From assembly GCF_000317895.1 (NCBI RefSeq), contig NC_019567.1:2480001-2544000 (forward strand): a stretch of DNA of 64,000 nt, read 5' to 3'. The translations under genes were made by a program, and so were the position numbers. Below, piece by piece: positions 51,242 to 58,152 of this stretch (position 1 is the stretch's first letter; every line of letters begins with the position of its first letter). A model generated the notes under the pieces. It worked only from the letters and a program-made list of their open reading frames with translations, ran no database searches and was not told the DNA's origin. The DNA comes from Bdellovibrio bacteriovorus str. Tiberius (GTDB taxonomy: Bacteria; Bdellovibrionota; Bdellovibrionia; Bdellovibrionales; Bdellovibrionaceae).

Positions 51242-51348
51242 GCTCGCGATTGCGATCAGCGAGCATATCGTAAGGGGCTCAATCCACAGGCACCAAACTT
51301 GGCCCGCATCCCGCGGTGGTAAGGATGCCAAAGATTGTCCCCTTTTTT
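51242..51348 (+). ncRNA. candidate structured RNA 1 with TAAGGATG hairpin
   Basis: First hairpin GCTCGC/GCGAGC (51242-51264). A second domain is closed by AAGGGG (51272-51277) and CCCCTT (51339-51344) followed by a T-run (51343-51348), a terminator-like end. Inside it, TGG-TAAGGATG-CCA (51317-51330) is a small hairpin that shares its loop with candidate RNA 2. An alternative pairing GCATCC/GGATGC (51306-51328) would bury the loop. It may be a small RNA or the structured 3' end of the transglycosylase mRNA. Confidence 0.5.
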
Positions 51349-51443
51349 GCGTTTCAGACACTCCCCTGCCTTCTACCACAATTTAATGGTTTCTCGCATT
51401 GGAACGGTTATCGCAAGAAAACCTCCTATCAGGAGAAAACCAT

Positions 51444-52004
51444 ATGAAAAAGAGTCTGACGGCCCTGGTGGCCCTGTTCCTATTAAGCAGTATCGGTCAC
51501 GCAGCCCCTTATTATACTGGTATCGGGTGTAACGAAGAAGGCACGTCGTGCACCTTCGGAAAGCCCTCTAAACGCGTTCTGCAGTGGTCCCGCAAAGGTA
51601 CAATTGATGAACTGGGTTCCCGTTGTGAGAAATTCTTCGACAATCTGGAACAGCGTCAGCGTGTGATCGGCACTCAGCGCGCGATCGACCTGAAGTACAA
51701 GAACTTCACCTATAACTGGGTTGCGGGCGACCTTGATCAGAATGGTCACGCCAAAATCAAATGCCATATTGAATTGCACTCTGAAATCGCTGACGTGAAA
51801 ATCGTGGGCGAAAAAGTAAAAAGTCTTTACTGGGTTTGTGAAAACGAAAACAGCGGCGGCATCTGCAAAAACTACGAGTCTGATTGCGAAGCTCTTCGTC
51901 AGCAGACCCTGAAAGACCCTTCTGTTCTGGATGCAACGATCTATCGTGGCGCGTCCCTGATGCAGGGTAATATCTGCGACGTGGTGGCAGCTCGTTTCAA
52001 ATAG
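51444..52004 (+). CDS. cysteine-rich secreted protein
   Basis: A 186-residue exported protein with signal peptide ending at GHAAP. The mature part has eight cysteines (29, 36, 61, 107, 132, 141, 148, 178), an even number consistent with four disulfides, so it should be oxidised in the periplasm or outside. The ATG at 51444 has AGGAG; the open frame 15 codons upstream is unsupported. A strong terminator follows. No known family; function unknown. Confidence 0.82.
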   Translation: MKKSLTALVALFLLSSIGHAAPYYTGIGCNEEGTSCTFGKPSKRVLQWSRKGTIDELGSRCEKFFDNLEQRQRVIGTQRAIDLKYKNFTYNWVAGDLDQNGHAKIKCHIELHSEIADVKIVGEKVKSLYWVCENENSGGICKNYESDCEALRQQTLKDPSVLDATIYRGASLMQGNICDVVAARFK

Positions 52005-52027
52005 TCCTGACTTCACTCTTCTCTAAT

Positions 52028-52058
52028 AAAAAAGCCGGAGCATACCTCCGGCTTTTTT
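52028..52058. terminator. bidirectional intrinsic terminator
   Basis: AAAAAAGCCGGAG / CTCCGGCTTTTTT perfect 13-bp stem between convergent genes. Confidence 0.95.
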
Positions 52059-52068
52059 ATTTTTACAC

Positions 52069-52716
52069 TTAAGCGGCGCTGCGCCCCCGGGCCCGGGATA
52101 TTTCACGACACTCATTCAGCATCTGGTCATAATAGCTCAAAGTCTGCCGCAGGTTCTGCATCACCACCACCTGGTCATCCGGCGACAGCGTGGCAATCTT
52201 ATTCAGAGCCTCTTCGGTATGCCCCACGTCCTCTTCCGCATGCACGCGGATAAAGTGCGCGGCCTTCGGGCCCCAGGCTTTTTCAATGCGTTTGTTCATG
52301 TAATCACCAAAGTGCGCGGCCAGTGCTTCCAGCCCCAGAATGTATCCAAAGAAGGCCATCGGTGAATGGTGTTCAATATAATAGTACTGCGTCTGATAAA
52401 GCGCGCAGGTGCCCGGCATTTCCGGCCACTCGTCCATCTTGCTGCCCAGGGTTTTCAGATCATTCACCAGCAACTTGTCGTGGCCTTTTTCTTCCGCACA
52501 ATGAGCCAGGAACCGGTTGTGGAACTCGGGCGCCCCAAACGGAGTGCGCGCCCCGGCCATGGCCAGCAGGCGTGTTGTGTGCCGGGCAAAATAGAAGGTC
52601 TGTGACACCCAGGCGGAATAGGCGTTTTTATCCTCCCACGGGAAAGCTTCGATCTGTTTTTTGGAGAAATTCAAAAGGGTCATCAGTTCATCGTTAACGT
52701 TCTTATTGTTAGGCAT
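52069..52716 (-). CDS. heme-oxygenase-like (HDO/TenA/PqqC fold) metalloenzyme
   Basis: A 215-residue all-helical protein. Putative metal ligands are in HCAEEKGHD (Glu75/76, His79), Glu130 (GYILGLEAL) and HAEEDVGH (His159, Asp163, His166), the arrangement seen in heme-oxygenase-like diiron oxidases and oxygenases. It is 30 bases downstream of an acyltransferase-like gene, so the pair is probably cotranscribed. A small biosynthetic reaction such as oxidation of an acylated amino compound is possible. The substrate is unknown. Confidence 0.78.
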   Translation of the reverse strand: MPNNKNVNDELMTLLNFSKKQIEAFPWEDKNAYSAWVSQTFYFARHTTRLLAMAGARTPFGAPEFHNRFLAHCAEEKGHDKLLVNDLKTLGSKMDEWPEMPGTCALYQTQYYYIEHHSPMAFFGYILGLEALAAHFGDYMNKRIEKAWGPKAAHFIRVHAEEDVGHTEEALNKIATLSPDDQVVVMQNLRQTLSYYDQMLNECREISRARGRSAA

Positions 52717-52746
52717 TTGTCTCTCTTTTCAGGTTTTATAAAACCA

Positions 52747-53427
52747 TTAAGCTGCAATTTTCAGATTGTTTCTGCGAACTTCGCGCAGACAAGTCACGTG
52801 GGATTTTTTATCGGCCCACAGGCTTTCCACCAGCGCGTTGGATTTCGGATCAGGCAGAGGCACAACCTCCCCTTTTGCCGTCATCAGGATTTCGCATTCA
52901 TAGTTCATCTTCATCACACTGCCAAAATAAGCGGTTCCGCTTTTTTCAGCCTTGCGCCGCACATGCAGATCCTTGCGGGCCGTGCCCACCCAGCAGTCCC
53001 ATGGCGAAGACTCCATCACCTTGCTTCCCAGCGCGATGATGATTTCAGCCCAGTTCACTTCAGCACTGCGTGACCGGTATTCGGGAATCACCGTCAAATA
53101 TTCCATGCTCATCAGGGTATTGATGCCGTGGCTTTTGAATTTATCAATGATCGCCTGATCAAAGGCTTTCATATAGTGGTGATCACGAAGGGCGTCCGAG
53201 CGCAGATCAAAAGCGCTGTACAAATGGAAACCGAAAACTTTTCCGTTATCGGTCAGGCAGACGACAATGTCGTTGCGATGAAAATCATCCGGGTTCAAAG
53301 GTTCGCCGACTTTGCCCAGCACCTCTGAATAGACCCGCCTCCATACCTCGTAGACGTCGTTGCTTAATTTTACTGTTTCGGGATTCAACTCGCGTGGATT
53401 GAAAAGGTGATACTGAAACTTACCCAT
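52747..53427 (-). CDS. GNAT-like N-acyltransferase
   Basis: A 226-residue protein of GNAT-type fold. The segment MEYLTVIPEYRSRSAEVNWAE (two stretches) looks like the acyl-CoA/ACP-binding strand and P-loop of N-acyl amino acid synthase or autoinducer-synthase-like GNATs, with DNGKVFGFHLYS as the preceding strand. AAGGAG lies before the ATG. It heads a two-gene unit with the heme-oxygenase-like enzyme. The exact GNAT subfamily and substrate need a profile search. Confidence 0.72.
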   Translation of the reverse strand: MGKFQYHLFNPRELNPETVKLSNDVYEVWRRVYSEVLGKVGEPLNPDDFHRNDIVVCLTDNGKVFGFHLYSAFDLRSDALRDHHYMKAFDQAIIDKFKSHGINTLMSMEYLTVIPEYRSRSAEVNWAEIIIALGSKVMESSPWDCWVGTARKDLHVRRKAEKSGTAYFGSVMKMNYECEILMTAKGEVVPLPDPKSNALVESLWADKKSHVTCLREVRRNNLKIAA

Positions 53428-53560
53428 ACACTCTCCTTCCGGCAGAGTGTTTCGGATGTTCCACTTGTGAACTTGATAGTGTTTACTAATTTAAGACGTT
53501 TGATTCTGAGAACAAGTGACTTGTGTGCTGTGATTCTCAAAAAATCACATTGCAAAAAAA

Positions 53561-54259
53561 TCAGTTGCGGAGCATTTCCACTTTTTCAAGAACGATCACG
53601 CAGTCAGGGCGCTTGTTTCGGTACACTGGAGCCATTCTGCGGATTTCGCAGTTCATCGTCAAACGCTCCGCCGAACGCGCTTCGCGCAGTTGGTGAACCG
53701 GAACATCCGGTACAAATGTACCATCCACTTCGCCGTTGAACACCAGGTTGCAGGCATCAATAATCTTCTGAGTGATGGTTTCTTCTCTTTCAAACAGGGA
53801 CCACCACTCGTAGGCGTTCAGTTCTTCAAGAGTATAAGAACAGCAGTCAAAGAAATTGAAATTACGGAACAGTTGAACGTGCTCTTTGGAATAGATCTCA
53901 ATGATATCTTCGTTCTGGATATGGCTGAACAAATCAGAACTTGGCACCAACCCCAGACGACGGAACGCCTTCCATGTGAAGGACAGACTGTCGTTGATTT
54001 TGTAGCCTTCAGCCAGCTGGGAATGACACAGCTCCTGATAGAAGCGCACTTTTTCAACGGCGTCTCTTTTTTTATCCAGAGGCAAACGGGAAAAATACGG
54101 AAGACCCGGAACATACGGGCGCACGGTTTTACCTTCAGCTTTCAGCATCAGGGAAATATCCGTGGTGATCGTCTTGAACTCTTCGTTCAGAACTTCGTGT
54201 TCATTGTCTCTAACGTAAATCTCTGGGTACATGATATCCTCGGTCGGCTCTTCAAACAT
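53561..54259 (-). CDS. hypothetical protein, paralogue of the protein at 10338-10973
   Basis: A 232-residue soluble protein without signal peptide. Its central part (GLVPSSDLF, EIYSKEHVQLFRNFNFF, CCSYTLEELNAYEWWSLF) aligns with the protein at 10338-10973 (GLSPSSDFF, VEVYTEEGFQVFRNLRFF, SSYTVEELYCIEWWKLF). The EEL and Trp-rich block suggest a PAS-like or other sensory fold. AGGA lies nine bases before the ATG. The gene is monocistronic. Function unknown; one of at least two family members in the genome. Confidence 0.8.
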   Translation of the reverse strand: MFEEPTEDIMYPEIYVRDNEHEVLNEEFKTITTDISLMLKAEGKTVRPYVPGLPYFSRLPLDKKRDAVEKVRFYQELCHSQLAEGYKINDSLSFTWKAFRRLGLVPSSDLFSHIQNEDIIEIYSKEHVQLFRNFNFFDCCSYTLEELNAYEWWSLFEREETITQKIIDACNLVFNGEVDGTFVPDVPVHQLREARSAERLTMNCEIRRMAPVYRNKRPDCVIVLEKVEMLRN

Positions 54260-54316
54260 TGTTTGGGATCCTGTGAAGTATCATAGTGAAACGCAGGACT
54301 CTTGTCCAATTCAAAC

Positions 54317-54347
54317 AAAAAAAGGCCCCCACTTGGGAGCCTTCTTT
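54317..54347 (-). terminator. intrinsic terminator of trxA
   Basis: Imperfect AAGGC-CCC / GGG-GCCTT hairpin with a long T-run on the minus strand, 3' of trxA. Confidence 0.8.
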
Positions 54348-54380
54348 ACCTACTTCTAATAATTCTAAACAGAGACGCGA

Positions 54381-54707
54381 TTAAACGTTCTTATTCAGGA
54401 ATTCAAGAATAGCGTCTTTTGGGTGGTTGCCAACCAATTGGCCCACTTCACTGCCGCCTTTGAACAACAACATCGCAGGGATACCGCGGATGCCGTATTT
54501 GCCAGGAACGCTTGGGTTTTCGTCCACGTTCACTTTTACGATTTTTACTTTCGCACCCAACTCCTGTGCAACTTCTTCAAGCTTAGGAGCCAAAGCACGG
54601 CAAGGTCCACACCACTCGGCCCAGAAATCCACCAACACTGGGGTGGATGAATTTAGAACTTCTGCATCGAAAGACGTGTCTGTAACTGCTTTAGTAAATG
54701 TGCCCAT
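54381..54707 (-). CDS. trxA: thioredoxin
   Basis: A 108-residue thioredoxin with active site WCGPC (32-36), FWAEWCGPCRALAP and cis-proline segment GIRGIPAMLLF. It reduces disulfides in cytoplasmic proteins with electrons from thioredoxin reductase, which is not encoded in this window. It is a monocistronic gene with its own terminator. Confidence 0.96.
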   Translation of the reverse strand: MGTFTKAVTDTSFDAEVLNSSTPVLVDFWAEWCGPCRALAPKLEEVAQELGAKVKIVKVNVDENPSVPGKYGIRGIPAMLLFKGGSEVGQLVGNHPKDAILEFLNKNV

Positions 54708-54777
54708 GAATGGCCTCCGTAATATCTACACTCAATGTGATCACGGAAACCTTATCGTCAAGCCCGGTGAGGATCAA

Positions 54778-55800
54778 TTACTTTTTAAAGAGGGCTTTTG
54801 TGAACTCTTGGCGCAACTTATCGAGTTCGTTGATGTTTTGACTATCCCAGTCAGCCTCCAGGTCTTTTTGACGACGACGCGCCTCAACCCGAGTCACGGT
54901 GCTTTTCGGAGATACCTTCACATCCTCCACAAGCTTCGCATACTTAGCCATCTTTTCTTGAAGTGCTTTATCAGCGTTTTGCAAACTTTCCTGAGCCCGC
55001 GAAACCAGCTGCGCCTGCTCGTCTTCTTCATTCCCCAGGCCCGTTCCAGGCACTGGAACTTCGACTTTTTCAACCTCGGGAGCCCCGCCACCCAAAAGCT
55101 CGCGTTCAAAAGCCTTCAGATCCACATCCGGAAAGTCCGACGCCTCTTCCGCTGCTGCGCCGCGCTCAGCATCCGCGGCAGCCATACGATCACCAAAGCG
55201 GAAAGATGGTTTTTCCCTTTGCTCTTCATCAGTTACAAGCAGGCCTTCAGAATTCTCATCAATTCTTTCAGGGCGTAAAGACTGCTCGCCATGGGCTTGC
55301 ACTTCCTCCGTGGAACCCTTGATAAAAATCGCTTCATCCTCGGGGGAAAACTTTCCGCTGCCGGCCACGGTGGTGGCAGACTTTTGCGGGCTTTCAACAT
55401 GCATGGCTTTGTTCAGGCGCTCCAGCAACACGGCTTCATCATGCCCCAACATGCGACCAATCACCTGCACCAGGCGCACCGGAGCCACCGGGGACTCCAA
55501 CACCATGTCGACGCGGATCTTAATAAGATCCTGCGGATTGGGTTTGAAGTTTGCCGGAAAAATAAGCACCGACTTTCCCTGCCAGCGGGACATCTCTTTC
55601 AGACGCTTCCCGACCCCCAGTGAGCTGACCTTGCCGCCTTTACCAGCGCCCACAACAAGATCCGGATTGAATGCCAGCATCTGCTCGGCCACAGCGTATT
55701 CGCTGGACAGACCGATGACATCAAAGCCCACCTTTTTCAAAGTGCCTTCAACAGACATCAAGTCAGCATAATCCTCGTAAACCAAAAGAATCTTGTTCAT
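54778..55800 (-). CDS. pseudo-receiver protein with coiled-coil tail
   Basis: A 340-residue protein. Residues 1-120 resemble a response-regulator receiver (KILLVYEDYADLMSVEGTLKK, FNPDLVVGAG), but the phosphorylatable aspartate is replaced by Gly51 and the conserved lysine is not evident, so it is probably not phosphorylated. The rest is acidic and low-complexity (about 125-260) and ends in a coiled-coil (about 265-340). It could be a scaffold in a signalling or polarity complex. Not a known family by eye. Confidence 0.75.
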   Translation of the reverse strand: MNKILLVYEDYADLMSVEGTLKKVGFDVIGLSSEYAVAEQMLAFNPDLVVGAGKGGKVSSLGVGKRLKEMSRWQGKSVLIFPANFKPNPQDLIKIRVDMVLESPVAPVRLVQVIGRMLGHDEAVLLERLNKAMHVESPQKSATTVAGSGKFSPEDEAIFIKGSTEEVQAHGEQSLRPERIDENSEGLLVTDEEQREKPSFRFGDRMAAADAERGAAAEEASDFPDVDLKAFERELLGGGAPEVEKVEVPVPGTGLGNEEDEQAQLVSRAQESLQNADKALQEKMAKYAKLVEDVKVSPKSTVTRVEARRRQKDLEADWDSQNINELDKLRQEFTKALFKK

Positions 55801-55928
55801 AGTTCTATTGTCAGATAAGCAGAGTCATGGGTCAATAAGGCTTCTTCTGGACAATGGGCGCGATGACGTTGGGCCCAAGGCACTCTAGAATAGGTTCAAC
55901 ACACGGGCGACCAAGACGGAGACCAGAT

Positions 55929-57032
55929 TTGAGTATTTTTAACGGAAAAAAAGCCGCACAGTACATTTTCTTTGAGATGCTCCCGAGTTTTATTTTGGGA
56001 TTGCTGGTCTTTGTCTCCATTATTTTGATGTTCCAGGTTCTGCGACTTACGGAATTCGCCCTGGTGCACGGCGTGGCCATGAAAACCATCGCCGAAATCA
56101 TCGGTTACGTCATTATCTCGATGCTGCCGATTCTGTTCCCCATGGCTTTGCTGTTCTCAGTTTTATTGACCTATGGGCGACTTAGTCAGGATTCTGAGAT
56201 CGTCGCTATGAAAGCATCCGGCCTGCCGATGGGCACACTGCTGCTGCCCGCCCTGGTTTTGGCCACTTTGGTGGGTGTGATTTCCGCCCAGATGTCCTTC
56301 AACATCGCACCCTGGGGAAATCGTCAGTTCGAAGTTCTTTATTCCCGCCTGGCCAACACGAAGGCTGCCGCGATTATCAAGGAAGGCACTTTTGCGGAAG
56401 GCTTCTTTGACATGGTCATTTACGCCAACGAGGTCAACACCGACAAGGGCCTGCTTAAAAAGGTCTTTATCTATGACGAGAAAAACGGCGACGTGCCTTT
56501 GACCATCATCGCCAAGGCCGGAGAAATTGTTCCGGATCCCTCACGCCCGGGGCATGAGATTTTGCTGCAATTAAACCAGGGCGAAATTCACCGTCAGGCC
56601 AAAACTCACACCAAGATCAGCTTTGACACTTATGACGTGCGCTTCTCGGAACCTCAAAACATCGAGGAAAAAGCCAAGTCGCCGCCTTCATTGACGTTGG
56701 AAGAAGTCCGCAACCGCCTGAAAGAGGACATCAAAGACAAAGAGGTCCGTCGCACCTTGCAGAGTGAATACCACAAACGCTGGGCCATCTCGGTCTTGTG
56801 TATCGTCTTTGCGATGATCGGTGTGGGTTTGGGAACAACCACCAACCGTCGTGCAGCCAAAGCCGGCGGCATGATTCTTTGTATTGGTATCATCATCTTC
56901 TATTGGATTTTGTATGTGGCTGCTGAAGGTGCAGCACGAAGCGGAACTTTACCAGCGGCACTTGCCATCTGGACACCGAATGTTCTATTTGCTGCTTTGG
57001 GTGTGGAAACTTTAAGAAGAAACTGGAACTAA
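55929..57032 (+). CDS. LptF/LptG-family permease (LPS export)
   Basis: About 367 residues; YjgP/YjgQ family. Four hydrophobic segments near the start (YIFFEMLPSFILGLLVFVS), then a periplasmic beta-jellyroll part (TFAEGFFDMVIYANEV) and two to three C-terminal membrane segments. LptF/G pull lipopolysaccharide out of the inner membrane with LptB. I chose TTG 55929 with GGAG eight bases upstream; the open frame begins earlier at 55854. A single permease gene stands alone here, so a partner must be elsewhere. Confidence 0.9.
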   Translation: MSIFNGKKAAQYIFFEMLPSFILGLLVFVSIILMFQVLRLTEFALVHGVAMKTIAEIIGYVIISMLPILFPMALLFSVLLTYGRLSQDSEIVAMKASGLPMGTLLLPALVLATLVGVISAQMSFNIAPWGNRQFEVLYSRLANTKAAAIIKEGTFAEGFFDMVIYANEVNTDKGLLKKVFIYDEKNGDVPLTIIAKAGEIVPDPSRPGHEILLQLNQGEIHRQAKTHTKISFDTYDVRFSEPQNIEEKAKSPPSLTLEEVRNRLKEDIKDKEVRRTLQSEYHKRWAISVLCIVFAMIGVGLGTTTNRRAAKAGGMILCIGIIIFYWILYVAAEGAARSGTLPAALAIWTPNVLFAALGVETLRRNWN

Positions 57033-57039
57033 GATTGGG

Positions 57040-57112
57040 CTTGAAAAATAGAGCGATGCAGTAGCATCCTTACTACCACGGTCGTCCCTGACCACATCGC
57101 CCCTCCCTTACT
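57040..57112 (-). ncRNA. candidate small RNA 2 with TAAGGATG hairpin
   Basis: Read on the minus strand: closing stem GCGATG/CATCGC (57100-57095 with 57058-57053), an inner GGTC/GACC hairpin, and TAG-TAAGGATG-CTA (57075-57062) with the same loop as candidate RNA 1, then CTCTATTTTT. A promoter-like TTGCAA (57145-57140), 17-base spacer and TACCAT (57122-57117) lies upstream, predicting a start near 57110 and a transcript of about 70 bases. It lies between the convergent LptF/G and dprA genes. Confidence 0.55.
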
Positions 57113-57116
57113 TCAA

Positions 57117-57145
57117 ATGGTAGGGGCAATACCTTGAGCTTGCAA
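57117..57145 (-). promoter_or_regulatory. putative sigma-70 promoter of candidate small RNA 2
   Basis: TTGCAA and TACCAT with exact 17-base spacing, on the minus strand, upstream of the structured RNA and 3' of dprA. Confidence 0.4.
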
Positions 57146-57204
57146 AAGGTTTTTTTAGATCATTTCATTTTTTTCCCAAGCATTTTGGCCACTTAGCACA
57201 TCCA

Positions 57205-58152
57205 CTACAGGTAGTGTTGCAGCTCAAGTGTCTTACCTACCCCTGCTGGTGTTCTTTGTTCACCAGCATTTTCTGAATGGAAAAACATGAGCAAGTCTTG
57301 AGCATCACGAACCGCCTGTGCACCGTCCATCAACAAATCCAAAGCGCCTTGAAAATGCGGATCCAACGGATGCCCCGGAACCACCCACACAGGCCTTCCG
57401 ATCTGTGCTGCTTGATGTGCGGTGATCAGCGTTCCGCTGCGACGACGAGCTTCCACCAATAAACTTGCGCGTCCCAAAGCGGCGATCAATCGGTTGCGAT
57501 GATGGAACAGATGTTTGTGCATCTTTTGGTGATGATCATACTCACTTAAAAAACATCCACCCTGTTCAATCACAAGCCCCATCCACTCTTTCAAGTTCGC
57601 CGGATAGACTTCACCCAGCCCCGAGGGTAACACCACCACGGTGGGACAGAATTTGCGCAAAGCCACGCTGTGAGCCTTTTGATCCACCCCGCGCGCACCA
57701 CCGCTGACAATGCAGGGCTTTTCATGCTCACAGAAATGACCCAGCTCTTTTTCCATCCATAACAATGAATCCGCCGCTGGCTCCCGACTGCCCACGACGG
57801 AAAGAGTTTTGGCATTGAGCCAAGCCGGCGAACCGCGATAACTCAGGGTCAACGGCGGGTCCGCCATCTGATAGCAAAGTTCCGGATACAAGGCCTCGCC
57901 ATAAACGACAAAATTCACCCCCTGCAGTTTCAGCTGCAGACTTTCTTCGCAGTGTTTTTTGAACAGCTCATGGTTTTTCGACAAAGCCTCGGCCAGATCC
58001 GGCCACCGGGGGCGAAGTTCGACCAGCACCTGATCGGCGGCAAGCCTCCCAGCGCGGGCAAGCTCGCGATAAAGGGCATGAATACCGTCACGGTCGACGG
58101 CGTAAAGCGGATGACTTTTTATTATTTGCGAAATCGAGTAAAGATCGTTCAT
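57205..58152 (-). CDS. dprA: DNA processing protein DprA
   Basis: A 315-residue DprA/Smf protein. The Rossmann-like core has VVGSREPAADS, IVSGGARGVDQKAHSVALR, VVVLPSGLGEVYP and RNRLIAALG. DprA loads RecA on incoming single-stranded DNA during transformation. The final region is short, so a C-terminal winged-helix domain is probably absent. A terminator lies just upstream of the start codon, and the weak Shine-Dalgarno (AGGG) falls inside that hairpin. The split comEC genes are only 2.5 kb away. Confidence 0.93.
   Translation of the reverse strand: MNDLYSISQIIKSHPLYAVDRDGIHALYRELARAGRLAADQVLVELRPRWPDLAEALSKNHELFKKHCEESLQLKLQGVNFVVYGEALYPELCYQMADPPLTLSYRGSPAWLNAKTLSVVGSREPAADSLLWMEKELGHFCEHEKPCIVSGGARGVDQKAHSVALRKFCPTVVVLPSGLGEVYPANLKEWMGLVIEQGGCFLSEYDHHQKMHKHLFHHRNRLIAALGRASLLVEARRRSGTLITAHQAAQIGRPVWVVPGHPLDPHFQGALDLLMDGAQAVRDAQDLLMFFHSENAGEQRTPAGVGKTLELQHYL

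Follow-up and report, generated by a model that had tools for sequence, protein, structure and literature searches.

The stretch of DNA considered here, 64,000 nucleotides of Bdellovibrio bacteriovorus str. Tiberius (contig NC_019567.1, positions 2,480,001 to 2,544,000; "the window" below, numbered from its first letter), carries on its minus strand, between the genes dprA and lptF, a short element that we call RNA 2. Judged by sequence, RNA 2 is a previously uncatalogued RNA conserved across the predatory Bdellovibrio and their relatives, and its two hairpin loops have the look of sites at which the global regulator CsrA could dock. It came to notice through an original prediction that two structured RNAs of the window, RNA 2 and a plus-strand RNA 1, may sponge or respond to CsrA, or belong to an unnamed family; for RNA 2 the comparisons support both ideas well, and RNA 1 turns out not to be a member of that family. 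The parts of RNA 2 are as follows.

57044-57110, minus strand: RNA 2, a predicted small RNA (sRNA) of ~67 nt with a three-way junction, drawn from conservation and covariation (family model match 57042-57113)
57094-57103, minus strand: 5' arm of stem P1, GGGGCGATGT, pairing with 57050-57059
57050-57059, minus strand: 3' arm of P1, followed by a U-run (57044-57049) and terminator-like; P1 is paired in 98.1% of cells
57084-57089, minus strand: hexaloop AGGGAC (ANGGAX) of hairpin 1, on the stem 57090-57093/57080-57083
57066-57071, minus strand: hexaloop AAGGAT (ANGGAX) of hairpin 2, on the stem 57072-57077/57060-57065
57104-57108, minus strand: a third GGA in an unpaired 5' AGGGA; all distinct members from the same family, and some others, have a GGA 5' of P1

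How widely is this RNA kept? It is present in all 24 genomes of the genus, at an expectation value (E) of 2.2e-18 or better. At E<=1, a family model, R1, built from the 24-sequence genus alignment A1, has matches in 94 of the 140 order genomes, and a wider model, R2, which was used for the order-wide counts with a cut-off of E<=1e-3, finds the RNA in 101 of the 140, weak members included: 62/66 genomes of the same family, 5/5 of family f5, 5/13 of f7, 29/47 of f9 and 0/9 of the rest of the order. Beyond the order, R2 reaches that cut-off in 5 of 228 genomes of the phylum. Two of these five were inspected: the match in G204, from another family of the phylum (L315, 501-563; 33 bits), shares the 5' AGGGAGGGGC and a pair of GGA hairpins and lacks most of P1, and the match in G259 is a bare terminator hairpin. 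An exact-pattern scan of genome contigs returned 96 stretches, 48 of which score at least 46 bits with R2, the next best scoring 21. The titles of the strong matches (L265-L280 set aside) read Bdellovibrio, Pseudobdellovibrio, Bdellovibrionales and the like, or else are the broad or odd titles of metagenome-assembled genomes: Deltaproteobacteria, Proteobacteria, Oligoflexia, "bacterium" and one "Streptomyces griseus" (L212). Searches of Rfam with the window, RNA 2 and eight homologous loci gave no family match (only unrelated names below their gathering scores) and none to the covariance models of CsrB, CsrC, RsmY or RsmZ. No CsrA-type sRNA of Bdellovibrio appears among the titles and opening abstracts of the open-access literature matches listed, and the word Bdellovibrio is absent from the main text of a broad CsrA-sRNA prediction paper (PMC5568370).

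The case for a structured RNA is made by the fold and by the way in which the fold has been kept. The predicted fold of RNA 2, a closed three-way junction (z -3.7), is equalled in stability by none of 200 shuffles, and RNAalifold, working unaided on the 24 genus sequences, of which 45 of 72 alignment columns are invariant, arrives at the same junction with 20 pairs. Alignment A2 comprises 91 matches, 67 loci outside the genus having been fetched. In it, 97.6% of cells are paired, and changes on both sides of a pair occur at 11 of the 20 pairs (94 cells; 0/500 shuffles as high); when the partners are slid by 1-3 columns as a control, pairing falls to 37-66%. The double changes touch all four stem pairs of hairpin 1, all six of hairpin 2 and 1 of the 10 pairs of P1.

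It is the loops that point to CsrA. Hairpin 1 has the loop C-ANGGAX-G in 64 of 85 distinct members, hairpin 2 the loop (T/C)-ANGGAX-G in 71 of the 85, and in both N and X vary; at least two GGAs lie between the arms of P1 in 79/85. An ANGGAX hexaloop directly on a stem is the high-affinity site of CsrA/RsmE (PMC4005645), and the SELEX (systematic evolution of ligands by exponential enrichment) consensus for CsrA is RUACARGGAUGU (PMC7652899). Among distinct members of the same family, the two GGAs stand 18 nt apart, start to start, in 53/57 and are both unpaired in the predicted fold in 50/57; the third GGA, 5' of P1, is found in 57/57 of them and in 10/28 of the other members. A single CsrA dimer can span two sites that are 10-63 nt apart, and the optimum is given as >18 nt (PMC7652899), so the spacing in RNA 2 falls at the edge of that optimum.

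The neighbouring genes and the promoter-like element are these.

57205-58152, minus strand: dprA, the upstream neighbour (PF02481, E 6.5e-64; TIGR00732, 179 bits, below the 191-bit cut-off)
55854-57032, plus strand: lptF, the convergent neighbour (TIGR04407, above cut-off)
57117-57122, minus strand: -10-like TACCAT, marked by conservation of TANCAT
57140-57145, minus strand: -35-like TTGCAA at a 17-nt spacer, with TTG kept at 16-18 nt

Of the 38 same-family loci outside the genus, the set to which this count was confined, 37 have dprA upstream in the orientation of the RNA and 37 have a convergent lptF downstream, within 150 bp in 35 of the latter. Neither gene stands beside the RNA, within the 2-4 kb examined, in the 29 loci of other families, where the neighbours vary. 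Phosphoglycerate mutase-like genes account for 4 of the 10 downstream proteins listed (identity confirmed for L166), and such a gene is a plausible CsrA-linked metabolic neighbour of the RNA in two other families.

Does the RNA have a promoter of its own? The element TTGCAA-17-TACCAT that the original prediction had placed upstream of RNA 2 is indeed present, and TANCAT, at four or more of its five fixed bases, occurs upstream in 58 of 85 members, as against 10-16 in four control windows. Among the 58, it stands 10-14 nt before GGGCGATG in 54 and has a TTG at 16-18 nt in 52 (the latter a count without a control). We infer the promoter from this conservation because a generic sigma-70 scan of the window gave none at RNA 2. 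Between the palindrome described below and the promoter lies an A-rich stretch (57142-57212, minus strand), perhaps an UP element; 55 of the 61 upstream regions from the same family have an AAxTGAAA-like motif there (again without a control).

As for the presumed partner, csrA is present in 24/24 genus genomes, and the CsrA of the Tiberius genome has L4, R6 and R44 in its RNA-binding face. L4 and R6 are important in CsrA. The protein also has N55, a contact of FliW (PMC13407953), itself a noncompetitive protein antagonist of CsrA (PMC7652899). The gene fliW follows csrA by ~0.4 kb in the same genome and is found in 117/140 genomes of the order. The RNA is present at E<=1e-3 in 12 of the 20 fliW-negative order genomes listed, several of the 12 being incomplete drafts; in three of the 12 (G104, G120 and G121) it is found at E<=2e-11 and csrA is kept.

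Putting these observations together, we think it probable that RNA 2 is a stand-alone, non-coding sRNA of ~65 nt whose two ANGGAX loops sequester one CsrA dimer in trans. That is, transcription would start at the RNA's own promoter just upstream of P1 and end at P1 and the U-run; the two hairpins inside P1 would each present an ANGGAX hexaloop, GGA to GGA 18 nt; and a single CsrA dimer would dock on both loops and so be kept from lower-affinity mRNAs. Here transcription, CsrA binding and sequestration are what we infer; conservation, structure, loop pattern, spacing, the changing neighbours and the presence of CsrA are what the comparisons show. In Bdellovibrionaceae, and this we say with less assurance, transcription is probably also tied to the reader of a pair of palindromes, most likely NrdR.

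A number of points weigh against this reading. The genus by itself is nearly without covariation (one pair double-changed, with 105/500 shuffles as good), an uninformative result that is the reason for the order-wide search; A2, in turn, was aligned to the model and hence leans towards the model's structure. Outside the family, the 18-nt spacing is kept in only 7/22 members and the two GGAs are unpaired in only 13/28 predicted folds; six distinct members (L158, L162, L164, L170, L175 and L179) have fewer than two GGAs, and of 12 weaker hits inspected, the ones from two small genomes, G095 and G096, retain P1 with AAGAU in loop 1. The co-occurrence with csrA says little, as csrA is near universal in the phylum (333/368), and csrA was not found in 3 of the 101 RNA-bearing order genomes: G027 (54% complete), G078 (84%) and G108 (84%). 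The sigma-70 scan that gave no promoter also gave just one weak terminator-like hairpin. We take G001, where the family model matches at 2374940-2375011 on the minus strand, to be HD100. On that assumption, Table 2 of PMC3627812 (regions more than 4-fold up in attack phase) has no entry at the place of RNA 2; the RNA may not be attack-specific, may have been missed by the protocol or may be silent.

Could the same features describe something else? The least improbable of the alternatives, although still an unlikely one, is that RNA 2 works in cis, as a terminator, attenuator or leader through which CsrA, acting at the two sites, controls the expression of a gene next to it. P1 does resemble a terminator, and in L151, L158, L163 and L166, from two other families, the phosphoglycerate mutase-like gene lies on the same strand 84-621 bp downstream, so that a cis role is possible there, which also counts against a purely trans-acting RNA. 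In the Bdellovibrionaceae, however, lptF is convergent and, in 35 of its 37 loci, no more than 150 bp away, and the promoter-like element stays with the RNA while the neighbours differ between families. We also consider it improbable that the loops of a conserved RNA bind a partner other than CsrA, such as the ribosome, another RNA-binding protein or a base-pairing target. GGA loops are Shine-Dalgarno-like as well, and the CsrA sites here are sequence-based; this must be set against an ANGGAX hexaloop that occurs twice, with N and X free, at a distance that a dimer could bridge.

Much less credible is a short translated open reading frame (ORF) starting at GGAGGGGCG-AUG and encoding a peptide MWSRMTVVV.... 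A purine-rich stretch does precede the AUG, and the 12 commonest frame lengths in the same family run from 16 to 38 codons; outside the family, however, the frame ends within 8 codons in 15/29 loci (range 1-50), and many of the substitutions keep pairing. The small ORF was rejected because members from other families do not preserve the frame that starts at this AUG.

Upstream of the promoter, and in the same family only, two further sequences may bear on how the putative decoy is controlled.

57203-57216, minus strand: palindrome CACTACCTGTAGTG, NrdR-box-like, overlapping the dprA stop codon
57237-57246, minus strand: GCAGGGGTAG, a degenerate partner box at 32 bp from the palindrome

The palindrome is likened here to the NrdR-box consensus. 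Within the same family, 61 upstream regions were scored (L126, being too short, was left out), and 46 of them match CACTAN4TAGTG at nine or more of its ten bases, as against 0.36 expected from shuffles; 52 match it at eight or more, and 41 of these have it 98-101 nt before GGGCGATG; given the overlap with the dprA stop, coding constraint may account for part of this conservation. Outside the family, 1/28 regions reaches 8/10 and none scores higher. The Tiberius genome has two exact copies, that of RNA 2 and one that precedes, by ~120 bp, the first start codon in the gene for the ribonucleotide reductase (RNR) large subunit, and 11 exact copies of a reversed control pattern. It is because the only other exact copy precedes an RNR gene that NrdR suggests itself. 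In all 24 main genus loci, CTAGAT(A/C)TAG lies upstream of the RNR gene, with the full CACTAN4TAGTG in 4; the ten-base scores are 10 (4 loci), 9 (2) and 8 (18), a score of at least 8 being reached by ~4.6/25 shuffled regions, and an RNR paralogue in G021 scores 7. Most RNR promoters of the genus (L331-L349) also have a conserved block like GATACCCGCCTTATKGAYRAGGCRCC, which precedes the palindrome by ~30 bases and does not have the look of a partner box at 32 bp.

NrdR boxes are separated by whole helical turns, most often three (PMC12051234). For the partner of the RNA 2 palindrome, 112 offsets were compared, and 32 comes out on top in the 24 genus rows (mean 4.08, narrowly over a runner-up of 3.92) and again in 26 rows from other members of the family (mean 3.31, runner-up 2.96), 11 of the 61 rows having been left out for want of a palindrome scoring at least 8 in the narrower search range. 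In both sets the partner is degenerate, reaching at least 5/6 in 8/24 genus rows and 5/26 of the others. The gene nrdR is present in 24/24 genus and 110/140 order genomes. We therefore offer with moderate confidence, as a family-level proposal for the Bdellovibrionaceae, that NrdR may control transcription of RNA 2.

How does this compare with what is known? RNA 2 resembles the Csr/Rsm sRNAs (CsrB, CsrC, RsmX/Y/Z) in having several GGAs, mainly as ANGGAX, in hairpin loops, in being apparently non-coding, and in its putative own promoter and terminator and its upstream palindrome. It differs in its size (~65 nt), in offering two loop sites, and so room for one dimer, where those sRNAs offer many, in matching no Rfam family, and in lying outside the Gammaproteobacteria, in an order with fliW in most of its genomes. 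By eye, CACTAN4TAGTG also differs from the csrB palindrome quoted in PMC4682653. That survey found BarA-UvrY (an activator of Csr sRNAs) and FliW to be almost mutually exclusive, and proposed that such systems drive CsrA-antagonist sRNAs throughout the Gammaproteobacteria and rarely or never elsewhere (PMC4682653). FliW presumably shares its target, CsrA, with RNA 2 and differs in being a protein and noncompetitive (PMC7652899). With the NrdR boxes of RNR promoters, the RNA 2 region has in common a palindrome with a candidate partner three helical turns (32 bp) away, and the same palindrome at the genome's own RNR gene. It differs in that the palindrome, which is a long way upstream of the promoter, would control an sRNA rather than an RNR gene, and in its variable centre and degenerate partner box.

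A bolder and frankly speculative picture, which we hold to be possible and rather doubtful, is that predatory Bdellovibrionaceae wire CsrA through both FliW and a one-dimer decoy sRNA, the sRNA being under the dATP/ATP sensor NrdR. If that were true, nucleotide supply and DNA replication in the prey would be coupled to the switch between the attack and growth programmes, a possible link between the sensing of deoxynucleoside triphosphates and global post-transcriptional control. RNA 2 would be a CsrA-decoy RNA outside the Gammaproteobacteria, one of very small size whose two loop sites take up one dimer, and would provide a short, genetically accessible entry to the attack-to-growth switch of Bdellovibrio.

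What, then, of the hairpin that led to RNA 2?

51271-51345, plus strand: RNA 1, the 3' terminator region of the transglycosylase SLT gene; not of the RNA 2 family

The sequences and coordinates given for the two flagged hairpins are correct, and their 20-mers are indeed identical at 17 of 20 positions, which is the one argument for two members of a single family, a reading to which we attach almost no credence. RNA 1 scores only 8.6 bits against R2 (E 1.9), which makes it the tenth-best match of the window when the filters are switched off. Pairs of 20-mers agreeing at 17 or more positions number ~680 in the window (extrapolated from 32 hits for 1500 random 20-mers), so a match of this kind picked by eye carries little weight; the 20-mer of RNA 2 itself has a single partner at 16 or more matches in the window, namely RNA 1. 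A closing stem and U-run had been claimed for both elements: RNA 2 has its closed three-way junction and a short U-run; the predicted minimum-energy fold of RNA 1 lacks the hairpin, the TAAG of the supposed loop pairing with CUUG. Nor is RNA 1 conserved in sister genomes. A DNA search of the 24 genus genomes gave one strong match beyond itself, 34 nt in the nearest genome, G004 (E 2.7e-8), directly downstream of the SLT orthologue, where the element is shortened, reads TAAGGTTG and has no GGA. The orthologous site holds unrelated sequence in G001 and a plain hairpin with a T-run in several other genus genomes (24 rows compared, with G018 and G014, whose locus meets a contig edge, left out). 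Related genomes thus supplied further copies with covarying stems for RNA 2 and not for RNA 1, which was rejected as a family member on its score, its one strong genus match and the loss of its GGA or of the whole element. Because its fold differs and its site is unconserved in G004 and G001, the stem difference between RNA 1 and RNA 2, once read as compensatory, is no evidence of compensation; genuine covariation is found inside the family of RNA 2. The likeness of the two hairpins is chance, and the best reading of RNA 1, which follows a gene for a transglycosylase SLT (PF01464), is that of a variable terminator region after that gene.

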